The notes beneath the pieces were generated by a model. That model was not told where the DNA came from and searched no databases. It saw nothing but the letters and a program-made list of their open reading frames with translations. A program made the translations under genes and the position numbers. DNA of 64,000 nucleotides from Firmicutes bacterium HGW-Firmicutes-7 (GTDB lineage Bacteria > Bacillota > Clostridia > Lachnospirales > Vallitaleaceae), in contig PGZO01000013.1 of NCBI GenBank assembly GCA_002841375.1, positions 1 to 64,000 of the forward strand, read 5' to 3'. Numbering within the stretch: position 1 is the first letter of the stretch; every line of letters starts with the position of its first letter. This document shows, piece by piece, positions 7,121-15,682 of the stretch.

Positions 7121-8368
7121 TTATCTTTCACAAATTTGTCCCTTTTTTATAACTGTTTCTACTGCACTTACTCCAATATGGTAAGATAAAAAATGGTAGG
7201 ATGGACAGTCATGAATGACGACGTCTGCAATCTTACCTACATCTAAACTCCCGATATTTTCAGCTCGATTAAGTGCTGCAGCACCATTAATAGTAAGTGC
7301 CGTTATAACTTCTTCCGTTGTCATACTCATTTGAAGTGTTGCGAGTGCTATGATTAAAGGAATTGATTCACTATAGCAACTTCCTGGATTAAAATCAGAA
7401 GCTAACGCTACAGCTAATCCTTGATCAATCATATATCTTGCTCTGGCATAAGGTTTTTTCAAAGAAAAGGCAGTACCTGGTAGCAAGGTCGCTATTGTAC
7501 CACTGACCTTCATCCTTTCAAGTCCTTCATCTGAAGCCATTAACAAATGGTCTGCCGACACTGCTTCCATATCTGCTGAAAACTTAGCGCCTCCTAAGTC
7601 TACGATCTCATCAGCATGTATTTTAATTTTAAAACCCATTTCTTTTGCTTTTAGTAACAGTCGCTCAGACTGCTCCACAGAAAAAACACCCTCTTCGCAA
7701 AACACATCACAATACTCTGCAAGCTGACCATTTGCTACCTCAGGAAGCACCTCTTCTAATAAATATTCAATATAATCATCTGCTCTGTTCTGGAATTCAT
7801 CTGGAACTGAATGAGCACCCATAAAGGTAGCCACAATATCTAATGGATGCTTTTCATTAAGTTCTTTCATGACCTTTAATTGTTTCATTTCCGTATCAAA
7901 ATCAAGACCATAACCACTTTTACCTTCCACAGTTGTAACGCCAAACCCAAGCATACTATTTAGCCTTTTCATTCCTGCATTTAATAGCTCATTATGACTA
8001 GCTTCTCTTGTTGCACCAACGCTATTGGCAATACCACCGCCACGTTTCATAATAGACATGTAGTCTTCACCTTTAAGACGCCAACCATATTCTTCAGCTC
8101 GGTAACCGCCAAATACAAAGTGTGTATGAGAGTCTACATAGCCTGGCAAAACAATTTTATTTCTTGCATCTATTACTATGCTATTTTTTTCTAAGTCTTC
8201 GTTAACAATGTCCTTCGTTTCACCAACCGCTTTAATCATGCCTTCTTCAATAATAATTGCACCATTATAAATAATATCCAGCTGGTTCATATCCTTGCCT
8301 TTTTTAGCAGCAAAGCCACTACAGGTTATAAGCTCGTTTGCATTTTTGATAATAATTCTATCTGTCAT
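7121..8368 (-). CDS. hutI: Imidazolonepropionase
   Basis: A 415-residue amidohydrolase that opens imidazolone propionate to N-formimino-L-glutamate. The metal-binding SHTHF motif lies at about residues 80-84; a later His is in IHADEIVDLGGAKFSA and the catalytic Asp in ALASDFNPGSC. The start is ATG 8368: GGGGAGTGATAAA upstream is its RBS and overlaps the ftcD stop. The TTG 15 nt further up would lie before this site. Only 4 bp separate it from ftcD, so coupling is likely. Confidence 0.97.
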   Translation of the reverse strand: MTDRIIIKNANELITCSGFAAKKGKDMNQLDIIYNGAIIIEEGMIKAVGETKDIVNEDLEKNSIVIDARNKIVLPGYVDSHTHFVFGGYRAEEYGWRLKGEDYMSIMKRGGGIANSVGATREASHNELLNAGMKRLNSMLGFGVTTVEGKSGYGLDFDTEMKQLKVMKELNEKHPLDIVATFMGAHSVPDEFQNRADDYIEYLLEEVLPEVANGQLAEYCDVFCEEGVFSVEQSERLLLKAKEMGFKIKIHADEIVDLGGAKFSADMEAVSADHLLMASDEGLERMKVSGTIATLLPGTAFSLKKPYARARYMIDQGLAVALASDFNPGSCYSESIPLIIALATLQMSMTTEEVITALTINGAAALNRAENIGSLDVGKIADVVIHDCPSYHFLSYHIGVSAVETVIKKGQICER

Positions 8369-8372
8369 TTTA

Positions 8373-9278
8373 TCACTCCCCAAGGTTGGATTCGATTACT
8401 TTTTCCATAGAGAAATTGGTTAAACCAAGATAATAAGCAGCTGTATCAATAAGTGCTTCCATTGGAACAAGGCCTACCACTTCACTACCGATTACATTGA
8501 CACCGTATCGTTTCGCTTCCATTTTAACAGTTTCAAATACTCTGTAAATAGATGTCTTCGTATAATCCGTAATATTCATGGTAACTTGGGTAATTCCTCT
8601 TTCTACTATACTGATACCACCAGCCTTAACGTACCTAAAGCCACCATTTGAATGTCTAATACACTTAGCAATTTTATTCACTATTTCAATGTTATCTGTA
8701 TCTAAGTCAATATTATAGGCTACCAACGGCATTCTTGCTGCTACGCCTGTAACACCTGCCGTAGGATGAAGTTTGGATTCTCCAAAGTCAGGTTTCCACT
8801 CAGGTTGTTTAAGCTTTTCTGCCATTCCCTCAAACTGACCCTTTCTTACATTTGCAAGATTTTGTCTTTCCGGTATTGATGCAGCATTTTCATATAAAAA
8901 GACAGGAATATCCCATTGATTGGCAATCATTTCACCTGTTTCTCTTGCTAGTTGAACACATTCATTCATAGTCATATTCTTTATTGGAATAAAAGGAACA
9001 ACATCTGTAGCACCCATTCTTGAATGTTGGCCTTCGTGTGTTGTCAAGTCAATTAACTTTGAAGCTACGCCTATTGCTTCGACAACAGCATTTTTTACAG
9101 CTTCTGGTTCTCCTATTACTGTAACAACTACTCTGTTATAATCTTTATCTGCTTCATAATTGAGTAGCTTAACTCCTTCTTTTCCTCTTAATGGCGCAAC
9201 AATTTGTTCAATTTTATTCAAGTCCCTACCTTCACTAAAATTAGGAACACATTCAACTATTTTTTTAACTTCTGCCAT
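8373..9278 (-). CDS. ftcD: Glutamate formimidoyltransferase
   Basis: A 301-residue stand-alone formiminotransferase domain that moves the formimino group of N-formimino-glutamate to tetrahydrofolate, releasing glutamate. The N-terminus (IVECVPNFSEGRD) and GQHSRMGATDVVPFIP, with probable catalytic His85, are conserved. Its presence, together with the separate cyclodeaminase and the absence of hutG or hutF, shows the folate-dependent route. It lies between hutU and hutI in one transcription direction; a hairpin at 9325-9352 lies upstream. Confidence 0.96.
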   Translation of the reverse strand: MAEVKKIVECVPNFSEGRDLNKIEQIVAPLRGKEGVKLLNYEADKDYNRVVVTVIGEPEAVKNAVVEAIGVASKLIDLTTHEGQHSRMGATDVVPFIPIKNMTMNECVQLARETGEMIANQWDIPVFLYENAASIPERQNLANVRKGQFEGMAEKLKQPEWKPDFGESKLHPTAGVTGVAARMPLVAYNIDLDTDNIEIVNKIAKCIRHSNGGFRYVKAGGISIVERGITQVTMNITDYTKTSIYRVFETVKMEAKRYGVNVIGSEVVGLVPMEALIDTAAYYLGLTNFSMEKVIESNLGE

Positions 9279-9324
9279 TTTATAACCTCCATCATCATTT
9301 GATATATCATTTGAACACTTCTTA

Positions 9325-9352
9325 ATTCGAAAAGGATATTAGTCCTTCGAAT
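9325..9352 (-). other. Hairpin in the hutU-ftcD gap
   Basis: ATTCGAAAAGGA/TCCTTCGAAT stem with one bulged base and a 6-nt loop, 10 bp after the hutU stop. There is no U-tract. It may be an mRNA-stabilising or processing hairpin inside the hut operon. Confidence 0.45.
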
Positions 9353-9360
9353 CAGTGCTG

Positions 9361-11388
9361 TCAATACATTTTATTTACTAGGCTTTTTACTAGATCATCA
9401 CTTGCTGTATAAGGCAATGTAATATGATCATTTCCTGTCATTGTCTCATTATACTCTACACAGGTTGAAATTGCGTTTTCATTCCTTGCCCAAGCACGTC
9501 TAGCTACACCACCCATTACATCCCACGGTATGGAATTTTTCAAAATCTCATCTACTCTTTTGCTCCCATCTAAAACCATTCCAAAACCACCATTTATGGC
9601 TTTTCCAATTCCCACACCCCCACCGTTATGAAGGGTAACAAGACTCATGCCTCTTGCACTGTTTCCGGCAAAGATATGTGTTGCCATATCCGCCATAACA
9701 TTGCTTCCATCCTTTATATTAGAAGTTTCTCTAAAAGGTGAATCCGTTCCACCAGTGTCATGGTGATCTCTTCCTAGCATAATAGGTCCAACTTCACCAC
9801 GCCTTACCATATCATTAAATTTAAGGGCAATGTTAAGTCTACCAAATGCATCTTGATACAATATTCTTGCTTTCGTTCCAACGACCATCTTATGTTGCTC
9901 AGCATCTCTAATCCAAATATAATTGTCTCTGTCTTGATATCGTCTATTGGGATCAATACAAGCCATAGCCGCAAGGTCCGTTCTATGCAGATCTTCTTGT
10001 AAGCTACTTAAACACACCCATCTAAAAGGCCCATATCCATAGTCAAACAGGCAAGGTCCTAATATGTCTTCAACATAAGAAGGCCAAATAAACCCATCTT
10101 TATCATCTCTTCCATTTTTTGAAATTTCGCTCACACCGCAATCATAAATTGCCTTCATAAAAGAATTTCCATAATCAAAGAAATAAGTTCCCTTTTCCAC
10201 TAGACCTTTAATCACTTTAAAATGTCTTTTAAGCGATATGTTTACCTGAATGATAAAATTATCTTTATCTTTTTCAAGTAAATGCGTTCGCTCCTCAAAA
10301 GATATCCCTGTAGGGCAATATCCTCCGTTGTAAGCTTCATGACAAGAAGTCTGATCTGACAAAAGGTCAATGACGATATTATTGTTTAGTGCAAATTCAA
10401 GTAGCTCTACAACATTTCCATAAAAAGCAATGGCAATGGGTTCACCTTTCTTTTGATAATCACTAGCAATTTCAAAGGCTTCCTTTGGTGTAGTCGCTAT
10501 CTCTTTCACCCATCCTTGTTGATGCCTTGTTTGTATTCTTGAATAATCAACTTCTGCAATAATACCTACGCCGTTAGCAATCTCAACTGCTTTTCCTTGA
10601 GCCCCACTCATTCCACCTAGTCCTGAAGACACAAAGAGCTTACCTCGAAGATCTTTATCTTCTGGGATACCAAGTTTAAGACGGCCTGCATTGAGAAGGG
10701 TACTATATGTTCCATGAACAATACCTTGAGGACCAATATACATCCAACCACCCGCTGTCATTTGACCATAGTTTGCAACACCAAGAGCGGCTGCACGATT
10801 AAAATTATCGTAGTCATCAAAAGCACCAACCATTAACCCATTTGTAATAATAACACGTGGTGCATCTGGTTTTGAGTGAAACAGTCCAAGTGGATGTCCT
10901 GAAGCGATTACCAAAGTCTGATCACATGTTAAGTTCTTTAAGTATTCTAGTACTAATTGATACTGCATCCAGTTTTGAAATACACTACCTGATTCTCCAT
11001 ATGTAACAAGTTCATAAGGATAAAGTGCGATATCAAAATCAAGATTATTATGAATCATTAGTTGAAAGGCTTTTCCTTCCAAGCATCTCCCAGCATATTT
11101 CTCTACTGGCTTTGCTTTTATTTGTTCTGATGGTCTAAAGCGATAACCATAAATCCTACCTCTTGTCAGCAACTCTTCCAGAAATTCTGGTGCCAAAATC
11201 TCATGAAATCTTTCAGGTATATATCTAAGTGCATTTTTCAAAGCAGTTTCTGTCTCTTCAACAGTCAGTGTAAAGGTTCTTTTAGGTGCTCTTCTAATAC
11301 CTTCTTCAAATTTCGGATAATCTGGCAAACCCTCTTCCAAATTTAGTTTTATTAACATTGATTTTTCTACGTCTTGATTGTTATACAT
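9361..11388 (-). CDS. hutU: Urocanate hydratase, long form
   Basis: A 675-residue urocanase that hydrates urocanate to imidazolone propionate with NAD+ as electrophile. Family signatures seen are SGLGGMSGAQGKA (dinucleotide region) and DQTSCHEAYNGGYCPTG. At ~675 residues it belongs to the long clostridial/bacteroidal type rather than the ~550-residue Bacillus/Pseudomonas type. ATG 11388 has GGAGGCGCGTAA upstream. It is second in the hut cluster, after hutH. Confidence 0.97.
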   Translation of the reverse strand: MYNNQDVEKSMLIKLNLEEGLPDYPKFEEGIRRAPKRTFTLTVEETETALKNALRYIPERFHEILAPEFLEELLTRGRIYGYRFRPSEQIKAKPVEKYAGRCLEGKAFQLMIHNNLDFDIALYPYELVTYGESGSVFQNWMQYQLVLEYLKNLTCDQTLVIASGHPLGLFHSKPDAPRVIITNGLMVGAFDDYDNFNRAAALGVANYGQMTAGGWMYIGPQGIVHGTYSTLLNAGRLKLGIPEDKDLRGKLFVSSGLGGMSGAQGKAVEIANGVGIIAEVDYSRIQTRHQQGWVKEIATTPKEAFEIASDYQKKGEPIAIAFYGNVVELLEFALNNNIVIDLLSDQTSCHEAYNGGYCPTGISFEERTHLLEKDKDNFIIQVNISLKRHFKVIKGLVEKGTYFFDYGNSFMKAIYDCGVSEISKNGRDDKDGFIWPSYVEDILGPCLFDYGYGPFRWVCLSSLQEDLHRTDLAAMACIDPNRRYQDRDNYIWIRDAEQHKMVVGTKARILYQDAFGRLNIALKFNDMVRRGEVGPIMLGRDHHDTGGTDSPFRETSNIKDGSNVMADMATHIFAGNSARGMSLVTLHNGGGVGIGKAINGGFGMVLDGSKRVDEILKNSIPWDVMGGVARRAWARNENAISTCVEYNETMTGNDHITLPYTASDDLVKSLVNKMY

Positions 11389-11418
11389 TTACGCGCCTCC
11401 TTTTTTATATAGACAATG

Positions 11419-11451
11419 TGACAAACCATCGGCGTTCGCAATGATTTGTCA
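11419..11451 (-). other. Hairpin in the hutH-hutU gap
   Basis: TGACAAACCAT pairs with ATGATTTGTCA (one mismatch) around an 11-nt loop. It lies between the two genes without a U-tract; a processing or attenuation role is possible. Confidence 0.4.
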
Positions 11452-11525
11452 ATCTAATACAAGCTTCGCTTGCCTACTTAACGAGTTAAGATCTTTCCTT
11501 TCATCAATACACTTATCAATATTGG

Positions 11526-13052
11526 TTATATTAGTGTACCAATTGTATTTTCAACAGCTTTTAAAATGTCGTTATTCTCAACCAATTGAATGCTTTTCTC
11601 AATATCAACATACATAATGCGATCTTCCTCAAGCTTAGTTATATTTTGGCGAATGATTTTATACGCTTCTTTTGTTCCTTTTCCTAATTTATCTGGATTG
11701 CTGAATTCGATGCCTTGTGCTGCTGTCATTAACTCAATTGCAATGACCCTTCTTGTATTATATAGTATCTCATTCGCTTTTCTAGCTGCGATTGTTCCCA
11801 TACTCACATGATCTTCTTGATTACCAGAAGAAGGTATTGAATCTACACTTGCTGGATGTGCTAATATTTTATTTTCTGAAACCAACGCAGCCGCAGTATA
11901 TTGCATAATCATAAATCCTGAATTAACGCCACCTTTTTCCGTTAAGAAAGCAGGCAATTCACTAAGACTTGGATTAACCAATCTTTCTATTCGTCTTTCA
12001 GCAGAATTTGCTAGTTCTGCTAGCGCAATTCCTAAAAAATCAAATGCAAGTGCCATTGGTTGACCATGAAAATTCCCGCAAGAAATAACTTGTTCATCGT
12101 CGGGAAAAATTAACGGATTGTCTGTAGCCGCATTAATTTCTTTGTTCACCTTATCAAGAACGTAATCAATAGCATCTTTACTTGCGCCATGTATCTGTGG
12201 AAGACATCGTAGCGAATAAGAATCCTGTAGCTTCACTTCACCCTGTTTGGTTGTCAATCCACTTCCTTCAAGTATACGTGCAAGATTTTTTGAACAAGCA
12301 ATTTGTCCTGTATGATTTCTAACAGCGTGTACTTTCTCATCAAAAACATCCATAATGCCTTTTAATGCTTCAAAAGTCAAAGCTGCAGATATATCTGCTG
12401 TTTTCATAAGATTAATCGCATCATAGGTGGTGACTGCACCAACCGCTGTAAGTACTTGTGTTCCATTAATAAGTGCTAAGCCTTCTTTTGAAGTTAATCG
12501 AACAGGCTGAATGCCAGCCGCAGACATAGCTTCATTGCCTTTAATTAATTGCCCTTTATAATAGGCTTCACCTTCTCCCATCATTACCAAAACCATATGA
12601 GATAAAGGCGCAAGATCTCCGCTCGATCCTAGTGATCCCTTCTCAGGAATGGCTGGGTGAACTCTTTTATTTAGCATTTGTACTAAATTATGTAAAGTCT
12701 TTAATCTTATTCCTGAATATCCTTTAACCAAAGCATTTAAACGTAGTAACATAATTGCTCTAACGATTTCTTCAGGAAAGTGTTTTCCAACACCACATGC
12801 ATGACTTCTTATAAGGTTATCTTGTAATTGCTCTACTTGCCCATTTGAAATGACAACATTACTAAACTTTCCAAAGCCTGTTGTTATTCCATAAACCACT
12901 TGCTCTTCTGTTACAAGCTTTTCCACGTAAGCTCTAGATTGGTTTACTTTCTCTACTGCAGCTTCTGATATCTGAACAAGATACCCTTCTCTTGCAACTT
13001 GTATCAATTGTTTTAAAGTTAAATTATTTCCATCAACTATTATTGTTTTCAA
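11526..13052 (-). CDS. hutH: Histidine ammonia-lyase
   Basis: A 508-residue histidine ammonia-lyase that deaminates histidine to urocanate. The active-site Tyr54 lies in YGITTGFG. The MIO prosthetic group region reads GSLGSSGDLAPLSHM, so the self-cyclising tripeptide is Ser143-Ser144-Gly145 rather than the common Ala-Ser-Gly. The rest is well conserved (CGNFHGQPMALAFDF, SGNQEDHVSMG). The start is TTG 13052 with GAGGTGTAAAT upstream. It is first gene of the hut operon; the region just upstream holds a copy of the palindromic element at 13114-13221. Confidence 0.97.
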   Translation of the reverse strand: MKTIIVDGNNLTLKQLIQVAREGYLVQISEAAVEKVNQSRAYVEKLVTEEQVVYGITTGFGKFSNVVISNGQVEQLQDNLIRSHACGVGKHFPEEIVRAIMLLRLNALVKGYSGIRLKTLHNLVQMLNKRVHPAIPEKGSLGSSGDLAPLSHMVLVMMGEGEAYYKGQLIKGNEAMSAAGIQPVRLTSKEGLALINGTQVLTAVGAVTTYDAINLMKTADISAALTFEALKGIMDVFDEKVHAVRNHTGQIACSKNLARILEGSGLTTKQGEVKLQDSYSLRCLPQIHGASKDAIDYVLDKVNKEINAATDNPLIFPDDEQVISCGNFHGQPMALAFDFLGIALAELANSAERRIERLVNPSLSELPAFLTEKGGVNSGFMIMQYTAAALVSENKILAHPASVDSIPSSGNQEDHVSMGTIAARKANEILYNTRRVIAIELMTAAQGIEFSNPDKLGKGTKEAYKIIRQNITKLEEDRIMYVDIEKSIQLVENNDILKAVENTIGTLI

Positions 13053-13435: not shown

Positions 13436-14278
13436 TTAATTAAGTTTAAAGTGGATTTTTTGTGCATCATATTCTAATTCATGATTAGCTTTTTGCATAA
13501 CAAGGTAGTTTGTTTCTCCAATAAATACAGGTAAAAGAACATCCCCACTAAAGTTTATTTCTGATGCTGAACTTCCTTTATTAATCGTATTACTCCCAGA
13601 AGGGTATCGATCACTAAGGTTTCTACTTATTGAGCCATCAAAGCCATAATCAGTTCCACCAATAACAGATCTTCCAGTTGGTGTTTCGCTTCCCCATATA
13701 CTTGGTTGGGTATTAGAATAATAAATATCCGGGTCTTCTAGCTCAGTAGGCGTAACATTCTTGCAAATTATATTTAGAGACACAAGTACATACTCTAATT
13801 GTAGGTCTTCCGTAATGTCAAATCCAAGTGCAGTTATATCAGCACTTGACAGCTTTTTTACACCTGTTACGCTCATCGTAACATCTGATTCATATCCGAA
13901 TGATGTACTCAAAGATTCATCAAACCAAGAAAATGAACTGCCTAACTCTACAGGATCGTCAAATGTACCTTTATTTTTAGAAGTAGCAGTATTTGAGTTC
14001 TTTTTGTTATTATCTTTAGGTGCTATTTTAGAATTCGAACCAGCTTTAACCGATTGATCTTCTTCATCTTCTTTGTCTTTATCTTCATCTTCATCTTTGT
14101 CTTCATCATTATCTTCATCTTCATCTTTGTCTTCATCATTATCTTCATCTTCATCTTTTGCTTCTTTTTTATCTGTATCTTCATCATCAAAGAAATCTCT
14201 AGCTGGGCTACATGACGAAGTTAATGATACTAGTGCAATTAAAACAAGTAAAATTATGTACTTTTTTATATTCTTCAT
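13436..14278 (-). CDS. Putative lipoprotein with acidic repeat region
   Basis: A 280-residue exported protein. Residues 1-22 are a signal peptide (basic MKNIKK, then a hydrophobic run) ending LTSSC with Cys23 as the likely lipidated residue, although Leu is at -4, not the preferred -3. Residues ~29-75 are almost only Asp/Glu/Lys, built from the decad DEDNDEDKDE coded by a 30-bp DNA repeat (14081-14158). A Lys/Asn/Ser linker follows, then a ~165-residue C-terminal domain (from about FDDPVELGSSFSW) that recalls the beta-sandwich layout of DUF4352-type domains; this likeness is a guess. It should sit on the outer face of the membrane; function unknown. Confidence 0.8.
   Translation of the reverse strand: MKNIKKYIILLVLIALVSLTSSCSPARDFFDDEDTDKKEAKDEDEDNDEDKDEDEDNDEDKDEDEDKDKEDEEDQSVKAGSNSKIAPKDNNKKNSNTATSKNKGTFDDPVELGSSFSWFDESLSTSFGYESDVTMSVTGVKKLSSADITALGFDITEDLQLEYVLVSLNIICKNVTPTELEDPDIYYSNTQPSIWGSETPTGRSVIGGTDYGFDGSISRNLSDRYPSGSNTINKGSSASEINFSGDVLLPVFIGETNYLVMQKANHELEYDAQKIHFKLN
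14081..14158. repeat. 30-bp tandem repeat in the lipoprotein gene
   Basis: Units at 14081-14110 and 14111-14140 are identical, with a partial third to about 14158; they encode the Asp/Glu/Lys decad. The period keeps the frame. Confidence 0.9.
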
Positions 14279-14516: not shown

Positions 14517-14630
14517 TTATATTACCGAATCATCTTCAGGTATAATGTAATCAATATTTAATGGAAGTTTTAATTGATAAAATCCGCCATTAGAAGTATA
14601 ATTTTTATGTAAAATATTTTGTTTTTGCAT
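14517..14630 (-). pseudogene. N-terminal remnant of an IS1182-family-type transposase
   Basis: A 37-codon frame from ATG 14630 to TAA 14517 reads MQKQNILHKNYTS, then FYQLKLPLNIDYIIPEDDSV. This matches the usual N-terminus of IS1182-family (DDE) transposases, where YQLKLP...YLIPEDDPVR is hallmark, and it breaks off exactly where the conserved R-LL would follow. Nothing of the catalytic domain remains nearby. It is dead DNA from an old insertion, lying upstream of the lipoprotein promoter. Confidence 0.75.
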
Positions 14631-14768
14631 ACATATATTTTACCATAAACCCCTTGCTTTTTAAATCTTTGGGTTTGTTTTTTTAGCTAAAAATGTGTTA
14701 TATATATCATTTTTATACCGTAAAAGCCAGTAAAGAATAGTTTTTGCGTAGATAATGTATAAACGTAT

Positions 14769-14874
14769 AGGTAGTATGATGTGGGGTTCATGGAGCCGCA
14801 TACAAGGACGTATGCACGCGACCTTTGCGCATGGACGCGCAAGGGAGCGCGGAATGAACCCCATATCGTACTAC
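14769..14874. repeat. GC-rich multi-hairpin inverted repeat (cloverleaf-like)
   Basis: Outer arms of 22 nt (14769-14790 and 14853-14874; core GGTAGTA...TGGGGTTCAT) pair with two mismatches. Inside are two hairpins: GCATAC/GTATGC (14797-14814) and TTGCGC/GCGCAA (14824-14841), the second inside a further CGCG/CGCG pairing (14816-14819 with 14847-14850). On the minus strand the two hexaloops are GTCCTT and GTCCAT. The GC content stands far above the surrounding DNA. It is either a structured RNA gene or a MITE-like repeat; no known class is recognised. Confidence 0.8.
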
Positions 14875-14968
14875 CAGAGCCAGTAGCCCAGCAAAAATTA
14901 TGACCGTCTTAGATTCAATTTATCAGATGGAAATTAAAGTAGCAAAGTTGTTTTCGTACATTAGAAAG

Positions 14969-15003
14969 GAGCTGCGCACTAATTATTTAGTGCGACAGCC
15001 CCT
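14969..15003 (-). terminator. Hairpin downstream of plsY
   Basis: CGCACTAA/TTAGTGCG core (8 bp) extended by GCTG/CAGC across a bulge and flanked by GAG/CTC, 41 bp beyond the plsY stop. The minus strand continues CTTTCTAATG, a poor U-tract. It is probably the 3' end of der-plsY mRNA. Confidence 0.55.
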
Positions 15004-15043: not shown

Positions 15044-15682
15044 TTACTTTACACTTTCGTCTTCTTGAGCAGCATTTTCTTCCACTACAATATCTTTTTT
15101 ATGTCCAATCTTACTTTCTGTACCAGACAGCAATCTCTTAATATTTGCACTATGTCTAAATAATGCAAAAGCCATTAAAACCAAGGCAAGTATTATGTAC
15201 TCTATTTCACCATGGAATACATAGGCCAATATTGGAAAAGTAATAACCATAATAATCGCTCCAAGAGATACATACCTAAAAATATAAATGGTTATTGCCA
15301 TAATAGCCATTAGAATTAGTCCAATAATTGGATTTACAGCCATTGCAACCCCAAGTGTTGAAGCAATTCCCTTACCACCCTTAAATTTCAAAAAAACTGG
15401 CCAGTTATGTCCCATTATTGCCCCAATCCCTGCATAGAAACCAACAATTGGGTCATCAAACAGCAATTTGCTAATTAATACGGCAGCTACAGCTTTTGTA
15501 AAATCACCTAAAAATGTGATTGCGCCAAATTTCCAACCTAGTACGCGAATTGCGTTTGTCGTACCTAGATTACCGCTACCATACTCTCTAATATCAATCT
15601 TCTGCTTCAATTCTCCAACAATATATGCTGTTTGAAAACATCCAAATAAATATCCAATCAATACGCCTATTAATCTACTCAT
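15044..15682 (-). CDS. plsY: Glycerol-3-phosphate acyltransferase PlsY
   Basis: A 212-residue polytopic membrane enzyme that transfers the acyl group from acyl-phosphate (made by PlsX) to glycerol-3-phosphate. The signature loops GSGNLGTTNAIRVLG and KGGKGIASTLG are present, with about five to six membrane segments and a charged C-terminal tail. It begins 3 bp after der, so it is co-transcribed. Its partner plsX lies at 36071. Confidence 0.97.
   Translation of the reverse strand: MSRLIGVLIGYLFGCFQTAYIVGELKQKIDIREYGSGNLGTTNAIRVLGWKFGAITFLGDFTKAVAAVLISKLLFDDPIVGFYAGIGAIMGHNWPVFLKFKGGKGIASTLGVAMAVNPIIGLILMAIMAITIYIFRYVSLGAIIMVITFPILAYVFHGEIEYIILALVLMAFALFRHSANIKRLLSGTESKIGHKKDIVVEENAAQEDESVK

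Follow-up and report, generated by a model that had tools for sequence, protein, structure and literature searches.

A dispersed two-hairpin RNA element of the TwoAYGGAY kind in Clostridia as a putative decoy for CsrA

The locus and its predicted fold

The window, a 64,000-nucleotide stretch of contig PGZO01000013.1 from Firmicutes bacterium HGW-Firmicutes-7, carries a compact inverted-repeat structure between a lipoprotein-like gene, whose product contains a long acidic Asp/Glu/Lys repeat, and a plsY-like gene (Table 1). A strong hairpin at 14970-15003, just downstream of the plsY-like gene, was passed over by the terminator scan and is possibly that gene's terminator on the minus strand. Further away, the minus-strand genes at 7121-13052 look by eye like a histidine-degradation cluster, and the closest named match of the urocanase-like neighbor is in a Vallitalea MAG (77%).

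Table 1. Features of the element and its surroundings, in window coordinates
Feature	Position	Strand	Basis or remark
Lipoprotein-like gene, other side of element	13436..14278	-	name by eye
Promoter-like TTGATA-17-TATAAT, 11/12 match	14574..14602	+	164 nt upstream of window copy; unproven
Whole element as inferred: P0, P1, two loop hairpins, GACCGTC flank at 3' end	14732..14909	+	copy-specific P0
P0 5' arm	14737..14747	+	pairs with 14891-14901 (11 bp); swap control
Core as originally predicted (P1 and both hairpins)	14769..14874	+	folding
P1 5' arm, 22 nt, pairs with 3' arm	14770..14791	+	folding; two-sided changes at each of 19 counted P1 pairs in 18 copies
Hairpin 1, hexaloop AAGGAC (14804-14809) on C-G, putative CsrA site 1	14798..14815	+	fold, loop conservation
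Stem of hairpin 1, GCATAC/GTATGC	14798-14803 / 14810-14815	+
Hairpin 2 (CGCG helix, bulge, 9-bp stem), hexaloop ATGGAC (14831-14836), putative CsrA site 2	14817..14851	+	fold, loop conservation
CGCG/CGCG helix	14817-14820 / 14848-14851	+
9-bp stem of hairpin 2, upper part TTGCGC/GCGCAA	14822-14830 / 14837-14845	+
P1 3' arm	14854..14875	+	folding
P0 3' arm	14891..14901	+	swap control
plsY-like gene, 3' end facing element; conserved in same-genus genome G001, which has no element here	15044..15682	-	name by eye

The original prediction had described the core as outer arms enclosing two hairpins with an extra CGCG pairing, and its coordinates and parts hold up throughout, including the minus-strand loops GTCCTT and GTCCAT. 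On the plus strand (108 nt) the predicted folding energy is -66.8 kcal/mol (z = -10.0), a value reached by none of 200 shuffles, compared to -51.2 (z = -7.7) for the minus strand (106 nt); over an identical 114-nt stretch the values are -66.8 and -54.9. The outer helix P1 comprises 20 Watson-Crick pairs and two imperfect pairs, as had been noted, which read U-G and G-U on the plus strand and A-C on the minus strand. Read on the plus strand, the loops and their closing pairs are C[AAGGAC]G and C[AUGGAC]G, and they lie 27 nt apart from start to start.

The predicted element extends past the coordinates first reported, through an additional helix, P0, whose sequence is specific to each copy. In all 10 copies examined in the host genome, P0 has at least 9 bp (mean 10.5), compared to a mean of 7.3 and a frequency of 16% for at least 9 bp when flanks were swapped among those copies. 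Outside the host genome it is found in two of three copies of the same-genus genome G001, in 11/22 copies of G021 (swapped, 24%) and in 9/25 of G013 (swapped, 12%); in copies from G017, G009, G035 and G055 it does not clearly exceed the swapped-flank control.

Copies, compensatory change and strand

The original prediction had called for a DNA search and for a covariance search against Rfam, and had named as its refutation the lack of a second copy in any genome together with the lack of a transcript. The DNA search returned one on another contig of the host genome (L002; 84% identity), in which most stem differences from the window copy fall in pairs and the GGA loops and junction are kept. 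When 96 relatives were searched with 114 bases, only these two copies matched, and the 161-base region had no match in plasmid and phage collections. Sequence search alone therefore misses the family, and covariance models are needed, with which many copies were found. The Rfam model TwoAYGGAY (RF01731) matches the window on the plus strand over its full length (positions 1-168), with enclosing helix and junction in the order and on the strand of the family, at 32.1 bits (E = 0.0017 in a 251-base search), under the cut-off of 43; an Rfam search of the whole window at the gathering threshold gave no match. Among the 96 relatives, RF01731 matches 14 genomes at E ≤ 1, five of them above the cut-off, including G001, whose copy scores 50.1 bits. 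None of 14 control genomes matched.

An alignment of 18 copies carrying A-N-GGA-Y-type loops (A3) was used to build a second model, R2; the window and L002 score against it, as against model R1, by construction. In A3, 90.9% of cells pair and 31 of 33 pairs show two-sided changes; covariation is 0.670 compared to 0.199 after shuffling, and there are 146 two-sided cells, where shuffles give 44 and slid registers no more than 58. The structure comes from these same sequences and so favors itself, but the margin is nonetheless large, and compensatory change this strong shows, at the level of sequence, a selected structure. Applied to the 96 relatives, R2 matches 21 genomes at E ≤ 0.1, 17 of these at E < 0.001, and its carriers include 12 of the 22 sampled genomes of the host's own family, so the suggestion that the element came from a source of other base composition is not needed.

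The element is multicopy. With no more than 38 candidates scored in any one genome, there are at least 38 R2 matches in each of G009 and G035, at least 37 in G021, at least 36 in each of G013 and G055, at least 32 in G017, 21 in G005 and 18 in G003. The host genome has eight such matches, and rereading of its loci raised this to at least 10 copies. Some copies stand in tandem arrays of three (L197, L206, L229, L263) or two (L202, L265, L268) with a period of 132-175 bp. In the three-element array L206:1492-1948 (G009) all six loops are intact, so that its transcript would be a CsrB-like RNA offering six GGA loops; the other three-element arrays have lost one or two. Two copies in G013 (L173:1789-1966 and L174:2270-2448) reach about 178 nt through an extra hairpin-like stretch inside hairpin 2. 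A TPP riboswitch match above the gathering score lies near an element copy in G307 (L290:2905-3022).

Counts per copy were taken from 142 model hits in eight genomes, which are not a random sample: they are chosen, mostly top-scoring hits of G009, G013, G017, G021, G035 and G055 together with the copies of the host genome (G000) and G001. The loop motif was not required for inclusion, although the 18 training copies of the model carry it and several of them are also within the 142. For counts, this set supersedes an earlier finder that demanded A-N-GGA-Y and returned 88 copies in 84 of 120 loci.

These copies bear on which strand acts. At fixed alignment pairs read on the GGA strand, G-U outnumbers A-C by 88 to 30, and by 72 to 15 in the P1 arms alone; hairpin 2 by itself has no such asymmetry (10 and 12). 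The GGA strand also folds more stably than its complement in 122 of 142 copies. Together, the excess of G-U and the stability favor RNA of the GGA strand, which is the plus strand of the window, and at the level of sequence they point away from a DNA hairpin or a minus-strand RNA. The GTCCWT loops of the original prediction thus read the less likely strand, and a minus-strand RNA was judged less likely on the same two grounds. Covariation, wobble polarity and the sub-threshold match to RF01731 all lend support to its suggestion of a structured RNA.

The history of individual copies is mixed. At the plsY-like locus, G001, the sole same-genus genome among the 96 relatives, keeps the gene and lacks the element: from a shared block of 78 bp (78% identical) to the end of the plsY-like gene is about 73 bp in G001 and about 520 bp in the host genome. 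The window copy was therefore either gained in its own genome or, just as possibly, lost in G001. In G001, a 350-aa gene stands between the likely lipoprotein homolog and the plsY-like gene. Another copy occupies the same site in both genomes (L256, L275), with differences that keep pairing. Taken together, the shared and the empty site indicate that copies are inherited and also vary in position. Six contigs of G414 (C28, C145, C201, C253, C267, C297) carry near-identical copies at or close to their ends, as if the repeat breaks the assembly, which suggests recent amplification.

REP/BIME and MITE sequences are short palindromic multicopy repeats found between bacterial genes, and the element likewise is short, palindromic, multicopy and intergenic. 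An alternative hypothesis is that it is a dispersed DNA repeat of this sort, moved by a transposase that recognizes hairpins, to which any role in RNA is incidental. Copy numbers that reach the tens in some genomes, a location mainly outside ORFs, the tandem arrays, the contig-end copies in G414 and the empty plsY site would all be expected of such a repeat. The wobble polarity and strand-biased stability, in contrast, point to selection on RNA, changes in the loops mostly stay within what CsrA tolerates, and the site common to the host and G001 shows that copies can be inherited in place. Among the ORFs of two clusters (L278, L279), judged by eye, no cargo or mobility gene lies beside the copies, and no mechanism of spread was found. 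Unlike REP, BIME and MITE elements, the element combines RNA-type wobble polarity with conserved loops of a protein-binding type and has no transposase seen beside it in these two clusters. We consider this alternative unlikely. The transposable hairpin cassette of the original prediction is supported in part, by dispersal, copy number and the empty site in G001, and not by any mobility gene, target duplication or observed movement.

Loops, TwoAYGGAY and CsrA

The loops of the 142 copies for the most part follow a simple rule: A, an optional base, GGA and then usually C or U, on a closing C-G pair. In 120 copies both loops read A(N)GGAX, each on a stem of 3 bp or more; one loop does so in 20 copies and neither in two. 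The 120 copies have 240 loops, of which 237 sit on a C-G pair. Hexaloops make up 210 of the 240, with U as the optional base in 95, C in 86, A in 28 and G in one; the other 30 are AGGAX pentaloops, which lack N and nothing else. CsrA/RsmE binds with high affinity to an ANGGAX hexaloop that sits immediately on a stem, and a missing N is allowed at lower affinity (PMC4005645), and the SELEX consensus of CsrA is RUACARGGAUGU (PMC7652899). By sequence, the loop rule closely fits this recognition, including the omissible N. One CsrA dimer bridges sites 10-63 nt apart, with an optimum above 18 nt (PMC7652899). The nine pairs of the upper stem of window hairpin 2 are unlike most hairpins selected by SELEX, which had four or fewer contiguous pairs (PMC7652899).

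The closest described relative is TwoAYGGAY (RF01731; Weinberg 2010), which, like the element, has an enclosing stem, a junction and two hairpins, these with AYGGAY-type loops, and whose hosts include Clostridiales (PMC2864571). Of the window loops, ATGGAC in hairpin 2 fits AYGGAY and AAGGAC in hairpin 1, with A as its second base, does not, while L002 fits in both (ACGGAC, ACGGAC). Besides loop 1, the sub-threshold score and a core of 106 nt against a model of 168 positions set the window element apart from RF01731. Most other copies have G-A mismatches in hairpin 1, which in the window and L002 copies is paired throughout. The best description of the element is a compact TwoAYGGAY variant; by Rfam's cut-off, strict membership fails for the window copy.

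A role in CsrA binding was proposed for TwoAYGGAY in 2015 from motif matches, with validation then said to be under way (PMC4333381), and a 2024-25 preprint still describes the motif as relatively unexplored (PMC11661157). In the literature on the motif, supplements aside and as far as its texts were available, we found no functional test and no numbers resembling dozens of copies per genome. Relative to those texts, the copy numbers, the strand polarity, the pentaloop variants and the tie to genomes with csrA and fliW appear to be new. Rfam labels RF01731 as Cis-reg; the 2010 table marks TwoAYGGAY as not cis-regulatory (PMC2864571).

The host genome encodes CsrA, with csrA (G000:C8:217639-217797) directly after fliW, and its CsrA retains Leu4 and Arg44, which we take to be residues with roles in CsrA. 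The pair lies downstream of flgK/flgL-like genes and is followed by one small ORF and then a flagellin-like gene (these neighbors named by eye, CsrA and FliW by profile). In a survey of 391 genomes of the host's class, Clostridia, 37 genomes matched RF01731 at a threshold of E = 0.01, and the host genome was added by R2 at one of E = 0.001, giving 38 carriers. This is a lower bound, since only seven (RF01731) or nine (R2) candidates per genome were scored and RF01731 missed the host genome. CsrA (PF02599) is encoded in 125 of the 391 genomes, in 33 of the 38 carriers compared to 92 of the 353 others (Fisher p = 2e-13). Among the 96 relatives, all 18 carriers (17 by R2 and G048 by RF01731) and 58 of 78 non-carriers encode CsrA (p = 0.02), with three genomes with weak R2 matches (G025, G064, G067; E = 0.02-0.04), all encoding CsrA, counted as RNA-negative. 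The genomes counted are related, so both p values are too small and overstate independence.

Across the 52 distinct carriers, CsrA is present in 47 and FliW (PF02623) in 47, and csrA, fliW and two-loop RNAs occur together in the host genome and in 46 of the 51 others. FliW does not separate carriers from CsrA-positive non-carriers, as all 28 of the latter that were tried have it. The same five carriers lack both genes; three are less than 90% complete (G267, G307, G346), G363 is 95% and G408 98% complete. A copy read in each keeps GGA in both loops; the last loop base is G in the G307 copy and, for G346, in one of the two loops.

CsrA and FliW follow motility, and the link between CsrA and the element could be indirect, with motility as the common cause. 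It could then be that a structured RNA presents its GGA loops to another protein or RNA and shares only a motile lifestyle with CsrA, a reading with which the 58 CsrA-positive relatives (of 76) in which no copy was found, and the lack of a functional test of RF01731 in the available literature, are consistent. The close fit of A(N)GGAX on C-G, with N omissible, to CsrA recognition argues against it, and we regard another ligand as improbable.

Neighboring genes and the proposed decoy

Orientation relative to neighboring genes could be classified for 130 copies, using ORFs of at least 80 aa from a simple script and not gene calls; the other 12 of the 142 were overlapped by such an ORF (10) or lay at an edge (two). 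Sixty-eight copies are antisense to both neighbors, 32 convergent, 24 sense to both and six divergent, so that the ORF on the 3' side points toward the element in 100 of 130; its median distance is 62 nt for copies antisense to both neighbors and 27 nt for convergent ones. This bias is strong in G009, G017, G035 and G055 and absent in G013 and G021, and it agrees with the 2010 label of not cis-regulatory. On one reading, GGA-strand copies avoid the sense strand of their neighbors through selection against CsrA sites in unrelated mRNAs; on another, the bias is an insertion preference.

The search for a dedicated adjacent promoter showed no enrichment across 141 copies: sites matching 11 of 12 promoter positions precede three copies in sense and nine in the antisense control. 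The region of the window copy holds five promoter-like sites in 801 bases where 4.0 are expected from shuffles, and the site in Table 1 therefore proves nothing alone. Intrinsic terminators lie within 150 nt of 3 to 13 of the 141 copies, depending on side and strand, and sense terminators within 150 nt downstream of just three. Of seven opposite-strand pairs of copies, six are divergent, pointing apart across 99-702 bp (L271, L272 and L273 in the host genome; L169, L170 and L173 in G013), and such pairs could share a two-way promoter. That the element serves as a minus-strand hairpin to terminate or stabilize the mRNA of its neighbor would accord with the 3'-side ORFs that point toward it at short distance, but a T-run right after the element on the minus-type strand in only eight of 141 copies, a wobble polarity favoring the opposite strand and the missing bias in G013 and G021 make this very improbable.

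We infer that the plus strand is transcribed into a TwoAYGGAY-type RNA that acts, on balance probably, as a two-site decoy that binds and titrates a CsrA dimer, a reading built on loop sequence, fold and gene co-occurrence. In such an RNA, the nested helices P0 and P1 would form a stiff handle that presents the two hairpins side by side. Each would end in an A-N-GGA-X hexaloop on C-G, and one CsrA dimer could bind both loops. The bound RNA would titrate CsrA off mRNAs, that of flagellin for example, and the many scattered copies might together act as a CsrA sponge for the whole genome, next to the protein antagonist FliW. The broader proposal is a selfish or domesticated RNA repeat that in some motile Clostridia has amplified to dozens of dispersed copies per genome, each of them a decoy with two CsrA sites and all jointly buffering CsrA beside FliW; we offer it tentatively, as a possibility.

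The proposed titration resembles that of the Csr/Rsm antagonist sRNAs (CsrB, CsrC, RsmX/Y/Z), which expose several A(N)GGA hairpin loops; the element likewise has multiple such loops, in a genome that encodes CsrA. The likeness is drawn as an analogy. Csr/Rsm systems concentrate many sites in a single RNA or a handful, whereas the element holds two sites in one rigid fold that is repeated genome-wide, and to our knowledge its dozens of copies exceed those of any known Csr/Rsm sRNA. It also occurs with FliW, which a 2020 review describes as absent from Gammaproteobacteria and as anti-correlated with BarA-UvrY, the genes behind Csr sRNA expression (PMC7652899).

The element is thus a structured RNA dispersed like a repeat, and its covariation, polarity and distribution give the 2015 proposal linking TwoAYGGAY and CsrA support that goes further than motif matches (PMC4333381). 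According to the same 2020 review, the joint action of FliW and sRNAs on CsrA was undetermined for any species (PMC7652899). Carriers that encode csrA, fliW and the two-loop RNA make this question directly testable and, if the buffering reading is true, RNA and protein antagonists would act in them on the same CsrA.
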